Assembly (NCBI GenBank): GCA_902511025.1
Contig: CABXDP010000001.1
Location: forward strand, 1 to 64,000
Direction: 5' to 3'
Length of the DNA: 64,000 bases
From: an uncultured Gammaproteobacteria bacterium
GTDB lineage: Bacteria > Pseudomonadota > Gammaproteobacteria > PS1 > Pseudothioglobaceae
A model generated the notes under the pieces. It ran no database searches, had not been told where the DNA came from, and saw nothing but the letters and a program-made list of their open reading frames with translations. Made by a program: the position numbers and the translations under genes. Shown here piece after piece: positions 2,792 to 34,692 of this stretch (position 1 is the first letter of the stretch; each line of letters starts with the position of its first letter).

Positions 2792-3574
2792 TTAGTCCGC
2801 TGTAAATCTAATTTTTACCTCATTATTGAACAAAGCCTCATTTGAGGGGAGAGGAATAGGTGATGATCTGAAGACGGCTCTCCTAATTGAGCTACCAAAG
2901 GACTGAGATATACTTTTAGACAGAGTTTGATTCTCAGTATTACCAGAACTGCAACCTAAAATTTTGACTGCCTCAACTGCACCATTATCTGCCTGATTAA
3001 TTAAAACATCACAAAACCAGCTTTTTTCAGCATCATCATAACGCCAAAAAGACCTAATTTTTTCTTTTACAGTTCTCAAATAAGATGATTTAAGAGCTTT
3101 TAGTTCAGGAGTCATCTCGATATCATCTATCTGAAGTACACTCAGACTACTCTCATTTTCAAGCGCTTCATTTCTTTTTGTTAAAGCCTCAATTCGAAGA
3201 GTTTTCTGCTCAGGACTTAGTCTAGACATTTGGCAAATGAAGTTGAGTAGGACTTCAAAACCAGTATTGGGCTGGTAGTACTCCCAGGCACCGTTGATCT
3301 CTCTTTCTACGCCTTCACCTTCCCCCATTGGAAAAGAGTATCTAGTTCGCTTGATTACTCTAAATCCCTTTAACTTACAGTCACCCTGGGCATAGGTTTT
3401 CTCACTGCCTTTACCCCAAGAGTCTAGATACCACCAATATATGTAGCCATCTTTTTCTATTAAAGTATCAAAATCAATAAATAAAGAGGCATTATTTCCT
3501 GGAAGAACTTTAGTCCAATCCGCATAGGAGTTAAAAGAGACCAAAACAGAAAGAAGTAGAATTATTTTTTTCAT
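2792..3574 (-). CDS. Secreted protein with surface-adhesin-E-like N-terminus and TolA/TonB-like C-terminal domain
   Basis: Signal peptide MKKIILLLSVLVSFNSYA; WTKVLPGNNASLFIDFDTLIEKDGYIYWWYL pattern; C-terminal IRSFWRYDD...CDVLINQADNGAVEAVKILGCSSG...SIRRAVFRSSPIPLPSN is TolA-C-like. Confidence 0.55.
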   Translation of the reverse strand: MKKIILLLSVLVSFNSYADWTKVLPGNNASLFIDFDTLIEKDGYIYWWYLDSWGKGSEKTYAQGDCKLKGFRVIKRTRYSFPMGEGEGVEREINGAWEYYQPNTGFEVLLNFICQMSRLSPEQKTLRIEALTKRNEALENESSLSVLQIDDIEMTPELKALKSSYLRTVKEKIRSFWRYDDAEKSWFCDVLINQADNGAVEAVKILGCSSGNTENQTLSKSISQSFGSSIRRAVFRSSPIPLPSNEALFNNEVKIRFTAD

Positions 3575-3575
3575 A

Positions 3576-4010
3576 TTATTTGCACCAACTCAATTTTTTG
3601 CCGCCCTTATATCTGTAAGCCAGATCATTTTCTAAAAGCTCTTTCTCAAGACTTACTCCATCAATAAACACTTTGGCGACAACCCTAAAGTATTTACCTC
3701 TTTGAATTTCATTAAGTTTTATTTCTTTTGCATTAAATAGCTTATCTCTAACAAAATCCCTAGCTAGAATTGCCACATCATTTTCATATTGACACTTCCC
3801 TTTAATTTCAGGGGTGTCAACTCCTTCAAGTCTTATGGCAATGTTTTTTCCAACAATAGGAGATAGAGAGTCAATATCAACTCTAAAAGTATCGCCATCA
3901 TAGACACTTATGACTTTGGATACTAATACTGATCCAAACTGATTTGCGGCCATAGAAGACTCAACACAAAGACAGAATGTTATTAAACAAATTTTTTTAA
4001 ATGACATCAT
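3576..4010 (-). CDS. Thermonuclease (SNase-like) family nuclease, exported
   Basis: Signal peptide; VYDGDTFRVDI...IRLEGVDTPEIKGKC motifs. Confidence 0.85.
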   Translation of the reverse strand: MMSFKKICLITFCLCVESSMAANQFGSVLVSKVISVYDGDTFRVDIDSLSPIVGKNIAIRLEGVDTPEIKGKCQYENDVAILARDFVRDKLFNAKEIKLNEIQRGKYFRVVAKVFIDGVSLEKELLENDLAYRYKGGKKLSWCK

Positions 4011-4164
4011 TTGGATTAGAATGGATTTATTTTTTCATTCGTGATTTTATCGAACTCTATAAAAGTTACAATGCTCTTCATAAAAACTCTATTATTTCTT
4101 CATAATTAATAAATAATATATTAGTACAATTTTGACTTTTATTAAATAACTTATCACTTTTAAG

Positions 4165-5538
4165 ATGACTAATTTAAATTTTATTTCTAAAACCTTATGT
4201 ATTGCCCTAAGTTCAGTTTTTTTGTTTTCTTCTCCTTCAATAGCTGATGATGACAATTACTCACCTCTCGATTCTCCCTCTTTCTTCGAGGGGCTTAATA
4301 CTTTTACTGCGGTTTTCTCTCAAATCAAACAAATGTATGTTGATGAGATAGATGATGAAACCCTATTTAATAATGCAATTAGGGGTCTAATTGAGGGTTT
4401 AGATCCTCATTCAAGCTATCTTGAGCCTGTTGCTCAATCAAAGGTAAGTGAGAGCACTATGGGCAAATTTGGAGGCCTTGGAATAGTTATTGGAACCAAA
4501 GGTGATTACATTGAAGTTGTTTCGCCTATTGATGATACGCCGGCTTACAGAGCGGGTCTCAAGGCGGGAGATATTATTCTACAAATTGGTGACCAAAATG
4601 TAAGCCAAATCAATCTTGAAGAAGGTGTGAAGTTAATGAGGGGCGCACCAGGTACAACAATTAAGTTGACTATAGGCAGGCCAGATATTGCCCCATTCGT
4701 TGTAGAGATTACCCGCGAAGTCATAACAGTCACTTCTGCAAAAGGACTTCTTCTCGAAGAGGGTATTGGATATCTAAGAGTTGCTCAATTCCAAAGACCT
4801 ACAGCCGAGGTTGTAGAAAAGATTATTGGAGATTTAGTAGAAAAGAATGAGGCAGATCTTGATTCACTAATTATTGATTTAAGAAACAATCCTGGTGGAT
4901 TATTAGATTCTTCAATCGATATTTCAAATCTATTTATTGATGAGCCGGGCATTGTTGTTTACACTGAAGGTAGAACGCCAAGCTCAAATATGTCGTTCCC
5001 AACCAAACCTGGTGATATATTGAATGGGGCACCTATTGTTGTGCTCATGAATGTTGGCTCTGCGTCAGCCTCTGAGATTGTAGCTGGGGCTCTCCAGGAT
5101 CATAAGCGTGCAATTATTATGGGAGAGGAGTCTTTTGGTAAAGGCTCTGTGCAGTCAATGATGGGTCTTCAAGATGGCTATGGTCTTAAATTAACCACAG
5201 CAAGATACTTTACGCCTTCTGGCAGGTCTATTCAGGCCAAAGGGATATCACCTGATATTGAACTTGATAATATATCTCTGAGAGGTGATGATGAAGAAGA
5301 AGAGTCGATAGATTTCAGTTCGCAGGAAAAAGATCTTAAAAACTCTTTATCTGCCCAGGACGAAGAAGAGACAACTTCAGAGGATCCAACTGAGCTGAGC
5401 CCAGAAGAAATCTTAAAGTCTCAGGATGAGATTACAGATGCACGTGATCAGGAGTTTGTTGATTTGTTGATGGAAGACTACTATGTCCATGAAGCTGTCA
5501 ATGTATTGAAAGCACTAAGGATTTATAAGAATAAATAA
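4165..5538 (+). CDS. ctpA: S41 family C-terminal processing peptidase
   Basis: Signal peptide, PDZ (GGLGIVIGTKGDYIEVVSPIDDTPAYRAGLKAGD), catalytic core NVGSASASEIVAGALQDHKRAIIMGEESFGKGSVQ. Confidence 0.93.
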   Translation: MTNLNFISKTLCIALSSVFLFSSPSIADDDNYSPLDSPSFFEGLNTFTAVFSQIKQMYVDEIDDETLFNNAIRGLIEGLDPHSSYLEPVAQSKVSESTMGKFGGLGIVIGTKGDYIEVVSPIDDTPAYRAGLKAGDIILQIGDQNVSQINLEEGVKLMRGAPGTTIKLTIGRPDIAPFVVEITREVITVTSAKGLLLEEGIGYLRVAQFQRPTAEVVEKIIGDLVEKNEADLDSLIIDLRNNPGGLLDSSIDISNLFIDEPGIVVYTEGRTPSSNMSFPTKPGDILNGAPIVVLMNVGSASASEIVAGALQDHKRAIIMGEESFGKGSVQSMMGLQDGYGLKLTTARYFTPSGRSIQAKGISPDIELDNISLRGDDEEEESIDFSSQEKDLKNSLSAQDEEETTSEDPTELSPEEILKSQDEITDARDQEFVDLLMEDYYVHEAVNVLKALRIYKNK

Positions 5539-5541
5539 TAT

Positions 5542-5576
5542 AAAAGCCCTCTATCTTAGACAGAGGGCTTTTTTTT
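5542..5576. terminator. Rho-independent terminator, probably bidirectional between ctpA and lepB
   Basis: AAAAGCCCTCTATCTTAGACAGAGGGCTTTTTTTT: stem plus T-run; A-run on the other side. Confidence 0.88.
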
Positions 5577-6489
5577 AATTGAAGCCACCTATTCTATTGA
5601 ATTGCATAGTGTTGTAATTCCAGTCCCAGTGCATCCAGATACCAATTGCTCGTCCAATTATGTACTCTTCTGGAACAAACCCCCAGAAACGAGAATCACT
5701 ACTGTGTGCGCGATTATCGCCCATAACAAAGTAATGCCCTTCTGGAATCGTTATTTCTGGTATACCTTTTGACTGGCCATTAGGATTTAAAAGCACCTCA
5801 TGAGGCTGTGAATCCATTAATTCCTGGACAAGCTTATAATTATTCATCGCTTTTCCAGAGTCTACTCCAAGGTAGGGACCAATATTTTTAAGTTCTAACA
5901 CTTCACCATTAACGATCAGTTGATCCTCGCTGTATGAAATCACATCTCCCGGTGTTGCAACAATACGTTTAATAAAGTCAACACCTGAATATCCAGGATT
6001 TTTTTCATAATTTGGGTACCTAAATACTATAACGTCACCTCTATTTGGTTTTGAGAATTCAACAAGTTTAGTGTTTGTAATTGGAAGTCTGAAGCCATAA
6101 TCAAACTTGTTTACCACTATAAAGTCACCTGTTAAGAGAGTTGGCATCATAGAGTTTGATGGGACACGAAACGGTTCAAAGATAAAACCCCTAAAAACGA
6201 ATACTAAAAGTAGAACTGGAAAAAGTTCAATCGACCATTGGACAAGCTTAGGCCTGTGATTGTATTTTTCAGATTTAGAGAACTTTAAAAAAATAAGAAA
6301 GTAAGCTATCCGTCCAAATTTAGATTTTTCTTGAACTGTATCTGAAACTGAGTCACTTGTTTCTTTTGACAGAAAAAGGTCAATTAAAACAATAGCAATG
6401 GCAAGAATCATTGCAATAAAGAGCCATGACAGAACATCCCAGGCAAAGAAAGGCTCTGCGTTTTTTAATACTGCTTCGTATATAGACAT
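5575..6489 (-). CDS. lepB: Signal peptidase I
   Basis: FRVPSNSMMPTLLTGDFIVVNKFDYG, RGDVIVFRYP, VKRIVATPGD-like and GDNRAHSSDSRFWGFVPEEYIIGRA motifs. Confidence 0.95.
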   Translation of the reverse strand: MSIYEAVLKNAEPFFAWDVLSWLFIAMILAIAIVLIDLFLSKETSDSVSDTVQEKSKFGRIAYFLIFLKFSKSEKYNHRPKLVQWSIELFPVLLLVFVFRGFIFEPFRVPSNSMMPTLLTGDFIVVNKFDYGFRLPITNTKLVEFSKPNRGDVIVFRYPNYEKNPGYSGVDFIKRIVATPGDVISYSEDQLIVNGEVLELKNIGPYLGVDSGKAMNNYKLVQELMDSQPHEVLLNPNGQSKGIPEITIPEGHYFVMGDNRAHSSDSRFWGFVPEEYIIGRAIGIWMHWDWNYNTMQFNRIGGFN

Positions 6490-28086: not shown

Positions 28087-29706
28087 ATGGAAAGAGAATC
28101 AATTGAATATGATGTAGTAATTGTTGGAGGCGGTCCTTCGGGTCTTGCTTCTGCTTGCAAACTCAAACAACTCAATCCAAACCTTTCGGTATGTCTTCTC
28201 GAAAAAGGCTCTGAGATTGGCTCTCATATTCTCTCAGGCGCAGTCTTTGAACCTAAAACACTGTTTGATCTTTTTCCTGATGATGCTAAGGATTGCCCTA
28301 CTCTTAATACACCAGTTGCAAAAGATGATCTTTTCTGGCTGATAGGAGATAGTAAAAGCATTAAAGTTCCTTCATGGCTCATGCCTAAAAGCCTTCACAA
28401 CAAAGGAAACTATATTATTTCTTTGGGGGAGCTTTGCCAATGGATTTCAGAGAAAGCAATGGAGTTAGGCGTTGATATCTTTCCAGGATTTCCTGCACAA
28501 AGCTACTTAAAAGATGAAAGTGGCCGAGTTATTGGAATATCCACTGGCGACATGGGAATTGATAAAGAAGGTAATCAAAAAGTCACCTATACGCCTGGTA
28601 TGGATATTCTAGCTAAGCAGACCATTTTTGCAGAAGGTGCAAGAGGTCATCTTGGAAAACAATTAATCAAAGAATTTAACCTTGATGAAAGGAAAACGCC
28701 GCAACATTTTGCTATTGGCTTTAAAGAAATTTGGGAAATTGAGAATGGTAATCACAGCCCTGGAGATGTAGTTCATACGATGGGCTGGCCTCTTAATGAG
28801 GGCACAACTGGTGGAGGCTTTCTTTACCATTTTGACAATAAAAGAGTTGCAGTGGGTTTGATTGTAGACCTGAACTATACGAATACAAGTCATAGCCCGT
28901 TCCAAGAATTTCAACAATTCAAAAAGCATCCAAAAATTAAACAGTTTTTAGATTCAGGGAAACGTGTTTCGTATGGTGCAAGAGCTATTACTAAGGGGGG
29001 CATCAATTCCCTCGTTAAGATGGATTTTAATGGTGGAATGATCATTGGTTGCGATGCTGGAACGCTCAACCCTAGTAAGATAAAAGGGAGTCATTGCGCC
29101 CTGCAGTCTGGAATTCTTGCTGCAGAATATATTCACAAGATTCTTAATGAAGAAATCTGTGATTTTGATGACTTATTTAAAGGTAGTTCTCTTTATCAAG
29201 AATTATACAAGTCAAGAAACTTTAGCGCTGCAATGCATAAGTTTGGTTTTTATTTGGGCGCGGCATACAATTTCATAGAGTCTAACATCTTTAGAAATTC
29301 GCTGCCTTTTACGATCAAGGATGAGCAGAGAGATTGTGACTCTTTGAATCTTAATAATCCTCTTTATGCGAAAGAGTACCCTGCCCCTGACAATGTTCTC
29401 AGTTTTGATATAACCTCATCTTTGTTCCTGTCTGGAACAAACCATGAGGAGGATCAACCTGTTCACCTTAAGTTGACTGACCCAACAATCCCTCTTACAA
29501 GAAATAAAGAACTCTTTGATGAGCCTGCCCAGAGGTATTGCCCTGCCGGTGTTTATGAAATAATTGACAAAGAAGGTGAAGATTATTTTCAAATCAACGC
29601 CCAAAATTGTCTTCACTGTAAGACCTGTGATATTAAGGATCCGTCGCAAAATATTAACTGGACACCGCCAGAAGGTGGAGGTGGACCCAACTATATTGGA
29701 ATGTAA
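28087..29706 (+). CDS. Electron transfer flavoprotein-ubiquinone oxidoreductase
   Basis: VVIVGGGPSGLASACKL; C-terminal [4Fe-4S] ligands CPAGVYE...INAQNCLHCKTCDIKDPSQNINWTPPEGGGGPNY. Confidence 0.96.
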   Translation: MERESIEYDVVIVGGGPSGLASACKLKQLNPNLSVCLLEKGSEIGSHILSGAVFEPKTLFDLFPDDAKDCPTLNTPVAKDDLFWLIGDSKSIKVPSWLMPKSLHNKGNYIISLGELCQWISEKAMELGVDIFPGFPAQSYLKDESGRVIGISTGDMGIDKEGNQKVTYTPGMDILAKQTIFAEGARGHLGKQLIKEFNLDERKTPQHFAIGFKEIWEIENGNHSPGDVVHTMGWPLNEGTTGGGFLYHFDNKRVAVGLIVDLNYTNTSHSPFQEFQQFKKHPKIKQFLDSGKRVSYGARAITKGGINSLVKMDFNGGMIIGCDAGTLNPSKIKGSHCALQSGILAAEYIHKILNEEICDFDDLFKGSSLYQELYKSRNFSAAMHKFGFYLGAAYNFIESNIFRNSLPFTIKDEQRDCDSLNLNNPLYAKEYPAPDNVLSFDITSSLFLSGTNHEEDQPVHLKLTDPTIPLTRNKELFDEPAQRYCPAGVYEIIDKEGEDYFQINAQNCLHCKTCDIKDPSQNINWTPPEGGGGPNYIGM

Positions 29707-29708
29707 GC

Positions 29709-30674
29709 CTATCTAACTTGATTCGCTGTCACAACAACCGTATCAACAATCTCATCTACGCTGCAACCTCTTGACAAGTCATTCACCGGCTTAGATAGCC
29801 CTTGAAGAATCGGCCCAACTGCTTTGGCGCCAGAGAAGCGCTGTACAAGCTTGTATCCAATGTTGCCCGCGTCAAGGTTAGGAAAGACAAAGACATTAGC
29901 TGGCGCGTAAAAAGAAGAGTCAGGATCTTTAATCTTTAAAACTTCTGAATCAAGCGCAGCATCAAGCTGAACATTTCCGATAATTTGAGCATTTGGAAGC
30001 TTAGAGCGGACCATTTCAGTTGCCTGCCTTACTTTGTCTACTTCGCTATGTTTTGCGCTTTGATTAGTCGAAAAAGAGAGCATTGCAAGCTTAGGCTCTT
30101 CATTTGAAAATGATTGAGCCGTCTCATAGGCACTAAAAGCAATCTCAGCAAGTTCGTCAGAGTTTGGTGAGATATTCATAGCACAATCTGTAAAAATTAA
30201 GTTTTCACCATACCTGTTGTGATCTTCATCAAACACCATTAAAAATAAACTCGAAACCAGACTGCTGTTCTCAGAGACTCCAATAATTCTAAGCGCGCTA
30301 CTCAAAACTTCCTGGCTTGGCGTAATGGCGCCTGTAACAACGCCATCCACCTCAGATCTGTGCAGTGCAATCATAGCGCATATGCTTGGACTTGAAAGCA
30401 TTTCTAATGCAGCCTCAAAGGAGACGCCCTTGTGTTTTCTGAGATCAAATAATGTTTGAGCATATTCGAGCCTCAAATCTTCGTTTTTAAGGTTTATTGA
30501 ATCAACACCGAGAGAAGATGCTACATCTTCATCAAAAAGGACGATTTGAGCCAATTTTTGATCTGCAATAGTGTGAGCCGCCTCTATCACTCTAGAGTCA
30601 CTTGATTCAGGTAATAAAATACGTGGATATTTGGTCTGAGCCCTTCTGTTTAAATCATCAAATAACGGCATCAT
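29709..30674 (-). CDS. pta: Phosphate acetyltransferase
   Basis: Single-domain PTA: RILLPESSDSRVIEAA; SLFLMVFDE; VFPNLDAGNIGYKLVQRFSGAKAVGPILQGLSKPVNDLSRGC. Confidence 0.93.
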   Translation of the reverse strand: MMPLFDDLNRRAQTKYPRILLPESSDSRVIEAAHTIADQKLAQIVLFDEDVASSLGVDSINLKNEDLRLEYAQTLFDLRKHKGVSFEAALEMLSSPSICAMIALHRSEVDGVVTGAITPSQEVLSSALRIIGVSENSSLVSSLFLMVFDEDHNRYGENLIFTDCAMNISPNSDELAEIAFSAYETAQSFSNEEPKLAMLSFSTNQSAKHSEVDKVRQATEMVRSKLPNAQIIGNVQLDAALDSEVLKIKDPDSSFYAPANVFVFPNLDAGNIGYKLVQRFSGAKAVGPILQGLSKPVNDLSRGCSVDEIVDTVVVTANQVR

Positions 30675-30853
30675 ATATTCCCAATAAAGTTAAATATAGT
30701 TTACATGATTTTTTTTAATTCAATTTGAACTGTCTACTTTATTCTTCAAAATCTATGATTACTTGAAGACTTATAAGATTAGTCCAAATAAATAATTTTT
30801 TAACACATATATATGAGTATACTTTTATAAATAAAAAATCATAAATTTAGTTA

Positions 30854-31801
30854 ATGGCCCAAAAGCTTTACCAAACTGTTATAGATCATATAAACGATAG
30901 AATTTCCAGTGAAGACTTTAAGATTGGTGATTTCATCCCTTCTGAATCTCAACTTTCAAAGCATCTAAATGTTAGCGTTGGAACTATTAGAAAGGCAATT
31001 GATAAGCTAGAAAATAATAATATTCTTCATCGATATCATGGAAAAGGCACTTGTGTAAAATCAAATTTATTGACTATGAAAAATGACTTTAGAGCTGAAA
31101 GATTAGATTTGGCCGCTGCATTCAGATTTGCAGCAAGGCTTAATATGCATGAGGCAGTTGCTAATCACTTCAGTTTGGCAGTTAATAAGAGTGGGTCAAA
31201 GTTTCTGTTAAATCCAATAGGTAAGCATTTCAGTGAAATCTCAGCAAGCGACTTGATTCTCATTGATGCTAACAATAAAGATACAATGAATCATCAAGAT
31301 GCCCCTGACCCTACTGCATGGGCAATTCATAGTGCTTTACACCGAAACAATCCTCAGGCTCGCTGCATCCTTCATGCTCACCCTCAATATGCAACAATTC
31401 TGTCATCCCTTGATGACAAAGAAATGAAGCCGATTGATCAAAACACAATGCGTTTTTATGACAGAGTTTCAATTGATAGAGACTATAGTGGAATGGGTCT
31501 AGGTAAGGAAGCTGAAAGGTTGAGCACCCTTCTGGGTGACAATCCAGTTCTCATGATGGGAAATCATGGTGTTTTGACTGCTGCTAGAACAGTCGCGAGC
31601 GCCTTTGATGAATTATATTACTTTGAGAGATCATGCCAAACACTCATTGGAGCATACCAAACAGGAAAAAAAATTCATGTTGTAAGCGATAAAGTAGCTA
31701 AAAAGACCGCTCAGCAGTGGATAGATTATGACGCTTCTGATTTGCATTTTGCAGCTCTAAAACGTATTTTAGACAAAGAAGAACCTGACTATAAAAACTA
31801 A
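30854..31801 (+). CDS. GntR-type winged-helix N-terminus fused to a class II aldolase/adducin domain
   Basis: Residues ~1-70 GntR HTH (FIPSESQLSKHLNVSVGTIRKAIDKLENNNILHRYHGKGTCV); remainder class II aldolase (RLDLAAAFRFAARLNMHEAVANHFSLAV, CILHAHPQYATI, MMGNHGVLTA), one uninterrupted frame. Confidence 0.85.
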   Translation: MAQKLYQTVIDHINDRISSEDFKIGDFIPSESQLSKHLNVSVGTIRKAIDKLENNNILHRYHGKGTCVKSNLLTMKNDFRAERLDLAAAFRFAARLNMHEAVANHFSLAVNKSGSKFLLNPIGKHFSEISASDLILIDANNKDTMNHQDAPDPTAWAIHSALHRNNPQARCILHAHPQYATILSSLDDKEMKPIDQNTMRFYDRVSIDRDYSGMGLGKEAERLSTLLGDNPVLMMGNHGVLTAARTVASAFDELYYFERSCQTLIGAYQTGKKIHVVSDKVAKKTAQQWIDYDASDLHFAALKRILDKEEPDYKN

Positions 31802-31815
31802 TAATAGGAGAGATC

Positions 31816-33051
31816 ATGCCAAAACTTGACGTTGATTATGTAAGAGAACAGTTTCCAGCTTTTAGAGACCCGCTAAGCTCTAAATGGTCGTTCTTTGAAA
31901 ATGCAGGTGGTAGCTATGTCCCATCCAATGTAATTGAGCGCTTAAATCATTTTATGACATCGACTAAGGTTCAGCCTTACGCAGAGTTCGACACCTCAGC
32001 TATAGCTGGAGATAACATGGATAAGGCGACTAATTTTTTTGCTGAGATGATTAACGCTGATAATGATGAAATCATAATTGGTGGCTCTACAACTATGAAT
32101 ATGTATGTGTTATCTAACGCAATGAGAAGTCTTTTAAGTCCTGGCGACGAAGTGATTGTCACTAATCAGGACCATGAAGCAAATGTAGGTGCTTGGAGAA
32201 GGCTTGCTGATCATGGCATGGTAGTTAAGGAGTGGCAAATCAATAAAGATACTGCTGAACTTGAAATAGATGACTTAAAGGCACTCCTATCTAAAAAAAC
32301 AAAAATTGTTGCGGTGACTCACTGCTCAAATATTGTTGGATCTATCAATGACCTAAAATCAATTGCTGAGCTTGTCCATCAATACGATGCATTCATTGTC
32401 GGTGATGGCGTCTCCTATGCTCCTCACGGATTCCCGGATGTGAAAGATCTAGACGTTGATTTCTATGCCTTTAGCCTTTACAAAACATACGGACCACACT
32501 TAGGTCTTCTTTATGGAAAGAAAGAGATACTGGATACACTTCCAAACCAAAACCATGAGTTTTTAGAGGGAGATGTGCCCTACACTCTAAATCCAGGTGG
32601 GCCGAATCATGAGGAACTCTCATGCCTTGTTGGAGTTTATGAATACTTTATGAATCTCTTTGAGCATCACTATCCGGGTGAAAACCCATCTATAAGAGAG
32701 AAAATTCATAAGGTAAATGAGTTAATTGCAGAGCATGAAAAGGATATTGCAAATCCGCTCCTTGATTACTTAACTAATAGAAGCGACATAAAACTCATCG
32801 GTAAAAATACAATCACTGATAAAGATAGAGCTCCAACAATTGCTTTTACAATGAATAACAAGTCATCCAAAGAGCTAAGCAGTGAGCTTGTAAAGCATGG
32901 AATTGCAACAAGGAATGATAATTTCTATGCCTGGAGATGTTTAATGGCTTTAGGTATAGATGTGGATGATGGCGTAGTTAGAACCAGCATGGTCCATTAC
33001 AATTCTCTTGAAGATGTTGAAAATTTAATTAATGCTTTACAAAAGATTTAG
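31816..33051 (+). CDS. Class V aminotransferase (cysteine desulfurase-like fold)
   Basis: FFENAGGSYVPSNV; VTNQDHEANVGAWRRLA; VGDGVSYAPHGFPDV; YAFSLYKTYGPHLGLLYG. Confidence 0.85.
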   Translation: MPKLDVDYVREQFPAFRDPLSSKWSFFENAGGSYVPSNVIERLNHFMTSTKVQPYAEFDTSAIAGDNMDKATNFFAEMINADNDEIIIGGSTTMNMYVLSNAMRSLLSPGDEVIVTNQDHEANVGAWRRLADHGMVVKEWQINKDTAELEIDDLKALLSKKTKIVAVTHCSNIVGSINDLKSIAELVHQYDAFIVGDGVSYAPHGFPDVKDLDVDFYAFSLYKTYGPHLGLLYGKKEILDTLPNQNHEFLEGDVPYTLNPGGPNHEELSCLVGVYEYFMNLFEHHYPGENPSIREKIHKVNELIAEHEKDIANPLLDYLTNRSDIKLIGKNTITDKDRAPTIAFTMNNKSSKELSSELVKHGIATRNDNFYAWRCLMALGIDVDDGVVRTSMVHYNSLEDVENLINALQKI

Positions 33052-33064
33052 AATTAAAAGCCCT

Positions 33065-33862
33065 TTATTTGATATTGCTAATCAATTCATCAATTACACT
33101 ATCATCAATTGAAACTGAATACTCTTTGTTGGCAAAGAAATTGCTTTCAACATCTAAGATATATTCTTTATAAGCCTTCACTCTCTCATGATGCAATCTT
33201 TCATACTCTTTCGAGAAGTCTCTATACTTTTTAGCGTGCCGAGGAATGAAATCTTTATTTTCACCCAGAATATCTGAAGAAAACAAATATTGTGCGTCAC
33301 ATTCTGCGCCTGAACCTAATGAGATAGTAAACAAAGATGTTCTTTTAGTAATCTCTGCAGCTAGTCTGTCAGGAATGACCTCTAACTCAATAGCAAAGGC
33401 ACCTGCAGACTCATAGCTCTTAGCTCTTTTCCAGACGGCTTTTGCCTCACCTAAAGATTTTCCAACAGCCCTATAGCCTCCAGTTAAAGTAATTTTTGGA
33501 GGGATGAGTCCTGCATGAGCAATGACTGGAACCCCTTCTCTAGCAAGTACTTCAACGACTTTTGGGCTCATAGAGCAATAAATTGACTGGGCACCGTGGT
33601 TCATAGCTTGCATAGCGCTTCTCAAAGCTTCATCTGCATTAGTATGATCACCCCACTGTAATCCAAACTGAAAATGAACCCCTTCTAATAATCTTGGAAA
33701 GTGCGACTTAGATTCTGAATACCCAGTACCAATCATTTCTATGCCAGCCTCTTTAGCTGCAATTGCTTGATCTAACGTATCCACTTGAACAAATTTAATT
33801 GTTCTTTTACCTTTGAGATTTTTTAAATCAAAAACGGTCAATCCTAGATCACTCATCATCAA
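33065..33862 (-). CDS. PanB-like (ketopantoate hydroxymethyltransferase/PEP mutase superfamily) protein
   Basis: VPVIAHAGLIPPKITLTGGYRAVGKS...AKSYESAGAFAIELEVIPDRLAAEITKRTSLFTISLGSGAECDAQYLFSSDILG parallels PanB. Confidence 0.75.
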   Translation of the reverse strand: MMMSDLGLTVFDLKNLKGKRTIKFVQVDTLDQAIAAKEAGIEMIGTGYSESKSHFPRLLEGVHFQFGLQWGDHTNADEALRSAMQAMNHGAQSIYCSMSPKVVEVLAREGVPVIAHAGLIPPKITLTGGYRAVGKSLGEAKAVWKRAKSYESAGAFAIELEVIPDRLAAEITKRTSLFTISLGSGAECDAQYLFSSDILGENKDFIPRHAKKYRDFSKEYERLHHERVKAYKEYILDVESNFFANKEYSVSIDDSVIDELISNIK

Positions 33863-34692
33863 ATCCTTTGATACAGTGTAGGAAACATTTTTCCTGATAA
33901 ATCGTCACCATTTTGATAACCATTTGACTCCATTATTGCCCTTTCAGCTTGAGCCCAATCTCCTCGATACTCAATTCTAGAGCCCTCTTTGGCCATTCTG
34001 AGCGTGTATCTATGAATAGTATTCTTTGGTACAGACTGACTTAAGCTTCCGTGCAGAGTTCTAATATCAAAAAAGACACAATCACCTATATCTAAGTCCC
34101 ACTGAAGGAATTCATAATCATCCTTATTATTAAGAATATCAGGGGTAATATCATAGCTTTTTCCATTCACTACCCCAGCCCTCCCATCGTCTGGATGTCC
34201 TTCTTGGAATCGAGTACGAATATAGAGCTTATCCCAGAGATGTGAACCCTTAATCCAAGAAATTGCTTCTTCTTTGAGGACTGGCTCCAAAGGAAGCCAT
34301 AAAACACACATTGAGCCATCAAAATCAAAGTATGAAATATCATGATGGAATGGCGCTCCAGATTTAGAACCCGCCTCTCTAAGAAACCAGTTGTCCATAA
34401 CTAGGTTGACTTGACTTGCATCCATCAGTTCGGAGGCAATTTGAGCCGTTGGTGAATTATGAACGAAATCTGTAAATTCATCAAAAAGATCCCACGTCCA
34501 AAAATCTTCGAAGTAACCAGGCAAGTCATCATCTTTAGTGTGCCTTACAAAACGCGGGCTAGGATTTAGTATGTCTTTAGAAATGCCCTCTCTAAGACAT
34601 TCAATCCAAGCTTTATCAAACTTCCCTTTAATTAAAACTGCACCATCTTTTCTATACTGATTAATTTGATCAGTATTAAGCAATTTACTCAT
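33859..34692 (-). CDS. Phytanoyl-CoA dioxygenase (PhyH) family oxygenase
   Basis: YRKDGAVLIKGKFD; APFHHDISYFDFDG (HxD) and IRTLHGSLSQS; RYTLRMAKEG. Confidence 0.85.
   Translation of the reverse strand: MSKLLNTDQINQYRKDGAVLIKGKFDKAWIECLREGISKDILNPSPRFVRHTKDDDLPGYFEDFWTWDLFDEFTDFVHNSPTAQIASELMDASQVNLVMDNWFLREAGSKSGAPFHHDISYFDFDGSMCVLWLPLEPVLKEEAISWIKGSHLWDKLYIRTRFQEGHPDDGRAGVVNGKSYDITPDILNNKDDYEFLQWDLDIGDCVFFDIRTLHGSLSQSVPKNTIHRYTLRMAKEGSRIEYRGDWAQAERAIMESNGYQNGDDLSGKMFPTLYQRI

Follow-up and report, generated by a model that had tools for sequence, protein, structure and literature searches.

A GntR winged helix joined in frame to a class II aldolase-fold enzyme in Ca. Thioglobus-type bacteria: a candidate autoregulating enzyme

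In a 64,000-nucleotide stretch of DNA from an uncultured gammaproteobacterium (hereafter the window), one gene appears to encode both a GntR-type DNA-binding domain (HTH) and a class II aldolase-type enzyme, which raises the questions of whether the fusion is real, how it arose and whether its product works as an enzyme, a regulator or both. A preliminary description of this DNA had claimed that the two domains lie in one continuous open reading frame (ORF), and we find this to be the case: the ORF at 30854-31801 (+) runs uninterrupted from ATG to TAA over 315 codons, scores above the Pfam cut-offs for GntR (PF00392, residues 5-68, 56.3 bits against 27) and for Aldolase_II (PF00596, residues 85-264, 144 bits against 22.2), and has five orthologues. 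In NCBIfam, residues 75-314 match NF005689/PRK07490 with 362 bits, above the equivalog cut-off of 260. Aldolase_II is the sole Pfam domain after the HTH, and UTRA, FCD and aminotransferase-type effector domains are absent; the UTRA profile PF07702, which gives 85.4 bits in the regulator of sister species described below, finds no match in the fusion. The gene is composed as follows.

30854-31801, + strand: fusion gene, 315 aa, GntR winged helix plus class II aldolase-fold enzyme domain (ORF, profile matches, five full-length orthologues).
30866-31057, + strand: DNA-binding winged helix of the GntR type (residues 5-68), an orthologue of the HTH found in the separate GntR-UTRA regulator of sister species (Pfam, HTH comparison, model).
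31058-31075, + strand: linker of residues 69-74; at least part of it stems from what is untranslated leader DNA before the stand-alone enzyme gene (alignment to the DNA between gntR and the enzyme gene in sister species).
31076-31801, + strand: class II aldolase-fold enzyme domain, residues 75-315, PRK07490 family, from the ancestral start ATG at 31076 (NCBIfam, orthologues, alignment, model, fold search).

In an AlphaFold model of the fusion (mean pLDDT 88.5, pTM 0.75), both domains are folded. The predicted structure has a complete winged HTH (helices at 5-18, 31-38 and 42-54, strands at 58-61 and 65-68), a short linker with lower confidence near residues 71-80, and a class II aldolase fold after it.

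Full-length orthologues of the fusion, free of stop codons, are present in five other genomes of the same genus (Ca. Thioglobus-type) at 77-99% identity: G003 (99%), G014 (90%), G004 (83%), G016 (78%) and G012 (77%), which together with the window genome, G000, make up the fused set of six. Three of them (G003, G014 and G004) were also recovered in a scan of 85,462 species, as AG-390-E17, AH-558-E04 and AG-319-D09, annotated as uncultured gammaproteobacteria or Ca. Thioglobus sp. Since the fusion is intact in six genomes, a frameshift, which the preliminary description had named as an outcome that would refute its claim, or an assembly error as its source is excluded. Searches for the fusion outside the genus found none among 369 gammaproteobacterial genomes, and the 66 loci returned by the 85,462-species scan, which relies on short peptide words, held no other HTH-enzyme match. 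Four long aldolase ORFs (L103, L132, L134 and L143) were considered as further fusions and set aside, as by eye their N-termini are not GntR-like; the additional residues there seem to reflect start codons called too far upstream. In the literature searched we found no characterised family with a GntR-class II aldolase architecture, and no GntR regulator of sulfoacetate. The rarity of the fusion is thus bounded by the 369-genome survey and the 85,462-species scan, within which it occurs in one genus.

The HAHP and GNHG motifs of the enzyme domain, also part of the earlier claim, are both present. In the alignment, the metal-ligand histidines (the HxH of LHAHP and the histidine of NHG) are kept in the fusions and in stand-alone relatives. 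The column of the PTAW motif, which we take to be the position of the catalytic glutamate E73 of fuculose aldolase (FucA), a protein outside our alignment, holds alanine in the fusions and in nearly all relatives. The best Foldseek matches are 3ocr, from the aldolase II superfamily, the non-haem iron enzymes TqaM and NovR, a pyruvic oxime dioxygenase and a decarboxylase. The aldolase label of this domain is therefore uncertain: 'aldolase' is a family name that leaves the reaction unfixed, given the alanine at the presumed catalytic position and a set of related folds that includes iron oxygenases. From its fold neighbours NovR, TqaM and pyruvic oxime dioxygenase, the chemistry may be oxidative. 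The neighbourhoods of distant PRK07490 members vary (BKACE, TauD, GMC oxidoreductase, ABC transporter) and gave no clue to the substrate.

The two halves of the gene have separate counterparts in sister species, where a GntR-UTRA regulator of about 240 aa is followed by a stand-alone gene for the enzyme. In six genomes (G025, G006, G002, G023, G024 and G009) the gene order at the equivalent place in the chromosome is ETF-QO, pta (-), a gene of 967-969 aa (-), TctC (-), TctB (-) and TctA (-), with the GntR-UTRA regulator, the stand-alone enzyme and a class V aminotransferase divergent from TctA; TctB was seen in G025 and is probable in the other five. The 967-aa protein combines SauS (NF047625, acylating sulfoacetaldehyde dehydrogenase, 683 bits against a cut-off of 600) with an AMP-binding CoA ligase. 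This natural SauS-SauT fusion, a single protein of 967-973 aa, lies at 3309-6212 (-) of L042, where its domains were checked, with orthologues in L043-L046, L048 and L059-L061, and TctABC genes are adjacent. Clusters of sauST with a tripartite (TTT) transporter have been assigned to the uptake and breakdown of sulfoacetate (PMC12625764). Because the TctABC-SauST neighbourhood matches these published clusters, the sister-species GntR-UTRA protein is predicted to be the regulator of a sulfoacetate operon, tctABC-sauST.

The fused species have lost both the sau-tct operon and UTRA, and pta adjoins the fusion; the immediate surroundings in the window are these.

29709-30674, - strand: pta, phosphate acetyltransferase, divergent neighbour of the fusion; its orthologue in G018 bears the same GntR HTH (profile matches, neighbourhood).
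30696-30704, - strand: element ATAGTTTAC, which reads GTAAACTAT on the - strand, conserved ahead of the divergent pta (intergenic comparison).
31816-33051, + strand: class V aminotransferase (TIGR01976-like), 14 nt downstream of the fusion (profile matches, neighbourhood).

The ATAGTTTAC element precedes pta both with and without the sulfoacetate operon. The fusion and the aminotransferase gene probably form one transcription unit. Farther downstream, the window holds overlapping PanB-like and PhyH-like genes at 33065-34692; the match of the former to ketopantoate hydroxymethyltransferase is confined to its C-terminal two thirds, and the parts of G004, G016 and G012 that were read do not show this gene at the corresponding place. 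A gene for xsc was found in the fused genomes G014, G012, G004 and G016, and G028 has the pta-enzyme layout with no HTH.

The HTH of the fusion is 66-73% identical to those of the GntR-UTRA regulators, and its orthology to them is backed by the junction and by synteny. Fusion residues 1-68 match the regulator HTHs and the match to the stand-alone enzyme begins at codon 75, ATG 31076, which corresponds to the start codon of that enzyme. Between these points the linker codons resemble the old enzyme leader (GTAAACTTAAACTTAAAAACTATG in fused G012 versus GTTAAACTTATCAACTATG in unfused G002). The joining of HTH codon 68 to the former leader ahead of the enzyme start would explain this arrangement, and a simple in-frame deletion would suffice to produce it. 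The preliminary description had also suggested that an internal ATG at about 31075 could yield a separate aldolase, making one locus the source of two products. An in-frame ATG does exist at 31076, and as the ancestral enzyme start it is still present in four of the six fusions; however, G004 has GTC and G016 has ATT at codon 75, and a Shine-Dalgarno-like sequence is lacking before it, so that a second product made beside the fusion is highly improbable.

The history of the junction can be read from the distribution of its parts. The six fused HTHs form one clade, at a support (89/92) that is not decisive, whereas trees of the aldolase and of ETF-QO reject a clade of the fused species (p-AU 2e-6 and 5e-57); two other intended species markers were unusable, one of 668 aa being rarely present and one of 595 aa multicopy. 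Between G000 and G014, third-position divergence is 0.14 in the HTH versus 0.39-0.46 in ETF-QO, pta and the aminotransferase gene. The HTH clade disfavours an independent fusion in each species, and its disagreement with the aldolase and ETF-QO trees points to allele exchange between species. The presence and absence of the sulfoacetate operon and UTRA are also mixed over the species tree (window 29675-31075 compared with L042 3233-10175), which suggests two alternative alleles exchanged by recombination. Our best reading is that there was one fusion event, whose 5' part spread between species by recombination, other species keeping the split operon allele; a single origin of the fused HTH is favoured on these comparisons.

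Is the fused HTH still in use? Its dN/dS among the fusions is 0.07-0.34, indicating purifying selection, and that of the enzyme domain is 0.02-0.06 where dS is unsaturated. At 33 of 69 HTH positions the residue is invariant in 17 sequences, including SE.QLS, VS.GT.RK and HGKGT. Both halves behave unlike relics. It could be argued that the HTH is a harmless N-terminal extension left by the deletion, the enzyme alone being functional, and the HTH does change a little faster than the enzyme domain (pN/pS up to 0.36 versus 0.02-0.19); yet in every pair its dN/dS lies well under 1, its recognition helix and wing hardly vary, and two promoters keep the operators described below, which makes a vestigial HTH improbable. 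The converse proposal, that the enzyme domain is now a non-catalytic sensor and the protein a regulator only, has a precedent in enzyme domains that became sensors, as proposed for BzdR (PMC3602430). Against it, the HxH and NHG histidines and the domain as a whole are as conserved as in the stand-alone enzymes, dN/dS is very low, and the fused genomes have no other copy of the enzyme, nor a second copy of the HTH, at orthologue-level identity; we regard this proposal as quite improbable.

If the HTH binds DNA, a candidate target lies upstream of the fusion.

30803-30818, no strand assigned: operator-like palindrome ACACATATATATGAGT (consensus ACTCATATATATGAGT) upstream of the fusion (intergenic comparison, genome and genus scans).
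30818-30823, + strand: TATACT, a -10-like hexamer overlapping the end of the operator and conserved with it (intergenic comparison).

The palindrome in the window differs from the consensus by a single mismatch in the left arm, and a consensus scan called no sigma-70 promoter at the operator and TATACT. The consensus ACTCATATATATGAGT precedes the fusion in all six species, with exact spacing in five, and in those regulator species that were read it lies before gntR and/or tctA. In the alignment of fused intergenic regions, in which 54 of 196 columns are invariant, the palindrome forms the longest block without variation, at 17 nt, followed by one of 9 nt. In G003 (L036), the palindrome about 40 nt upstream of the fusion has a TA run 2 bp longer (CATATATATATG), an extension possibly due to slippage that would alter the spacing of the half-sites.

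The 847-kb window genome has two CATATATATG sites in all, and a genus-wide scan for ACTCATNNNNATGAGT gave 0-2 sites per genome versus 0 for a reversed control, mostly at the promoters of the fusion, gntR/tctA and HTH-pta and at sat, the gene that we take, from its sequence motifs, to encode ATP sulfurylase. The palindrome, with ATAT, GTAT or ACAT at its centre, lies before sat in 20 of the 22 genomes with a readable sat start (L226-L247); in G000 it is at C4:13754-13769, outside the window. The site is palindromic in the five fused genomes with sat (G000, G003, G014, G004 and G012) and in G018, and in these genomes the fusion is the only close copy of the HTH, other GntR HTHs being at most 48% identical. 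In G028 (99% complete), where there is no close HTH copy, we found no site at sat or before the enzyme gene. The sat site is present in G026 (93% complete), which lacks a close copy of the HTH, and is decayed in G010, whose regulator gene lies at a contig edge; therefore, site and HTH are not perfectly linked. Four further genomes with the sat site and without the HTH are 53-70% complete. Another GntR paralogue could read the site, and the association between HTH and sat site across genomes is suggestive, short of statistical proof. Sites at a gene of 391 aa and inside ilvB share TCATATATATGA and were not counted because they lack the ACTCAT...ATGAGT arms. Beside the 391-aa gene, TCATATATATGA is conserved in many genomes, but has other flanks (L160 5963, L161 6176, L163 5387, L172 4316, L173 5092, L179 2445) and is perhaps the site of a different regulator.

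The same HTH has been joined to another enzyme in G018, where an HTH of 70% identity, with the palindrome upstream, is in frame with a phosphate acetyltransferase (L056 9409-10626, +, 405 aa; GntR 58.3 bits, PTA_PTB 345 bits). The G018 HTH groups with the regulators of G021, G027 and G008, matching the placement of G018 in the ETF-QO tree, so that the HTH-Pta fusion, known from this single genome, is independent of that in the window. Its origin would need a reversal of the HTH relative to pta. It is tempting to hypothesize that one HTH repeatedly swapped its sensor for a neighbouring enzyme, in the six species and, with Pta, in G018, keeping its operators, and that flux through the enzyme sets expression of its own operon and of sat; we hold this broader scheme as tentative, and somewhat doubtful.

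Taken together, the proposal of the preliminary description that the protein is either an autoregulating enzyme or a regulator built on an enzyme fold is supported by an operator kept at its own promoter and at sat, purifying selection on the HTH and a known split ancestor. We think it fairly probable that the fusion is a functional DNA-binding, autoregulating enzyme of the trigger-enzyme type. As far as sequence comparison goes, the split ancestor, the junction, the recognition helix and palindrome kept at two promoters, and purifying selection on both halves are documented. According to this proposal, an ancestral GntR-UTRA repressor would have controlled sat and its own gene as well as the divergent sulfoacetate operon (tctABC-sauST). 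Deletion in one lineage would have removed operon and UTRA, and the HTH would have become fused in frame with the next gene, that of the class II aldolase-fold enzyme. The fusion would still bind ACTCATATATATGAGT; at its own promoter, binding would overlap the -10-like box and repress, and the fusion would also act on sat in trans. HutC-type regulators normally need UTRA for the correct dimer geometry, which counts against binding by the fusion; oligomerisation of the enzyme domain may take the place of UTRA dimerisation and pair two HTHs. In the most speculative step, occupancy of the enzyme domain by substrate or product would tune DNA binding, making the enzyme the sensor; this true-sensing version carries roughly half of the confidence that we place in the autoregulating enzyme. 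It is also conceivable that the autoregulation is plain and negative, repression following concentration, with the enzyme domain supplying oligomerisation and catalysis and sensing nothing: operator and HTH have outlasted the sensor domain, and the sequence carries no sign of allosteric coupling. However, the sat site is kept too, where a fixed, unsensed repressor is less obviously useful, and an HTH fused to two different enzymes could favour a metabolic link, so that we rate autoregulation of this kind as rather unlikely.

Comparison with known systems places the predicted autoregulating enzyme among several partial parallels. BzdR combines an XRE-type HTH with a shikimate-kinase-like domain that lacks kinase activity, and an origin by HTH-enzyme fusion has been proposed for it (PMC3602430). 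Like BzdR, the fusion pairs a DNA-binding domain with an enzyme fold as a putative effector domain; it differs in its HTH and enzyme families and in that its unfused ancestor and operators survive in sister species, and, in contrast to the inactive domain of BzdR, its enzyme domain is probably active, given its catalytic histidines and the purifying selection on it. With MocR/PdxR proteins it shares a GntR winged helix followed by an enzyme fold, and the NCBIfam matches to such regulators cover the HTH only. The MocR family is old and widespread, and its enzyme-type domain resembles a PLP aminotransferase; the fusion, in contrast, has a class II aldolase-fold domain and was confined to one genus in the searches made. 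As in HutC-type GntR-UTRA regulators, there is an HTH, a palindromic AT-rich operator and an autoregulatory site, and the direct ancestor has this very architecture with a divergent catabolic operon, but the fusion has an enzyme in place of UTRA and, lacking UTRA, is not a full member of the type. Residues 75-315 are a full member of PRK07490/NF005689, above the curated cut-off, whose relatives outside the genus are stand-alone. PutA, BirA and NadR are trigger enzymes whose switches are known experimentally; they too carry catalytic and DNA-binding domains on one polypeptide, with gene control being a prediction in our case, but their domains are unrelated and the switch of the fusion is a proposal from sequence.

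How regulators acquire sensors, and how enzymes turn into regulators, is usually inferred from ancient families. Here, one genus retains both unfused parents, the junction, the operators, a natural control that lost the HTH (G028) and a second HTH-enzyme fusion. The replacement of a dedicated sensor by an enzyme that senses is testable with native proteins of close relatives. The operator at sat also offers a candidate link between organosulfonate use and expression of ATP sulfurylase in abundant marine bacteria. If the broader scheme of repeated sensor swaps is true, these bacteria would hold freshly made enzyme-sensors beside their unfused ancestors.
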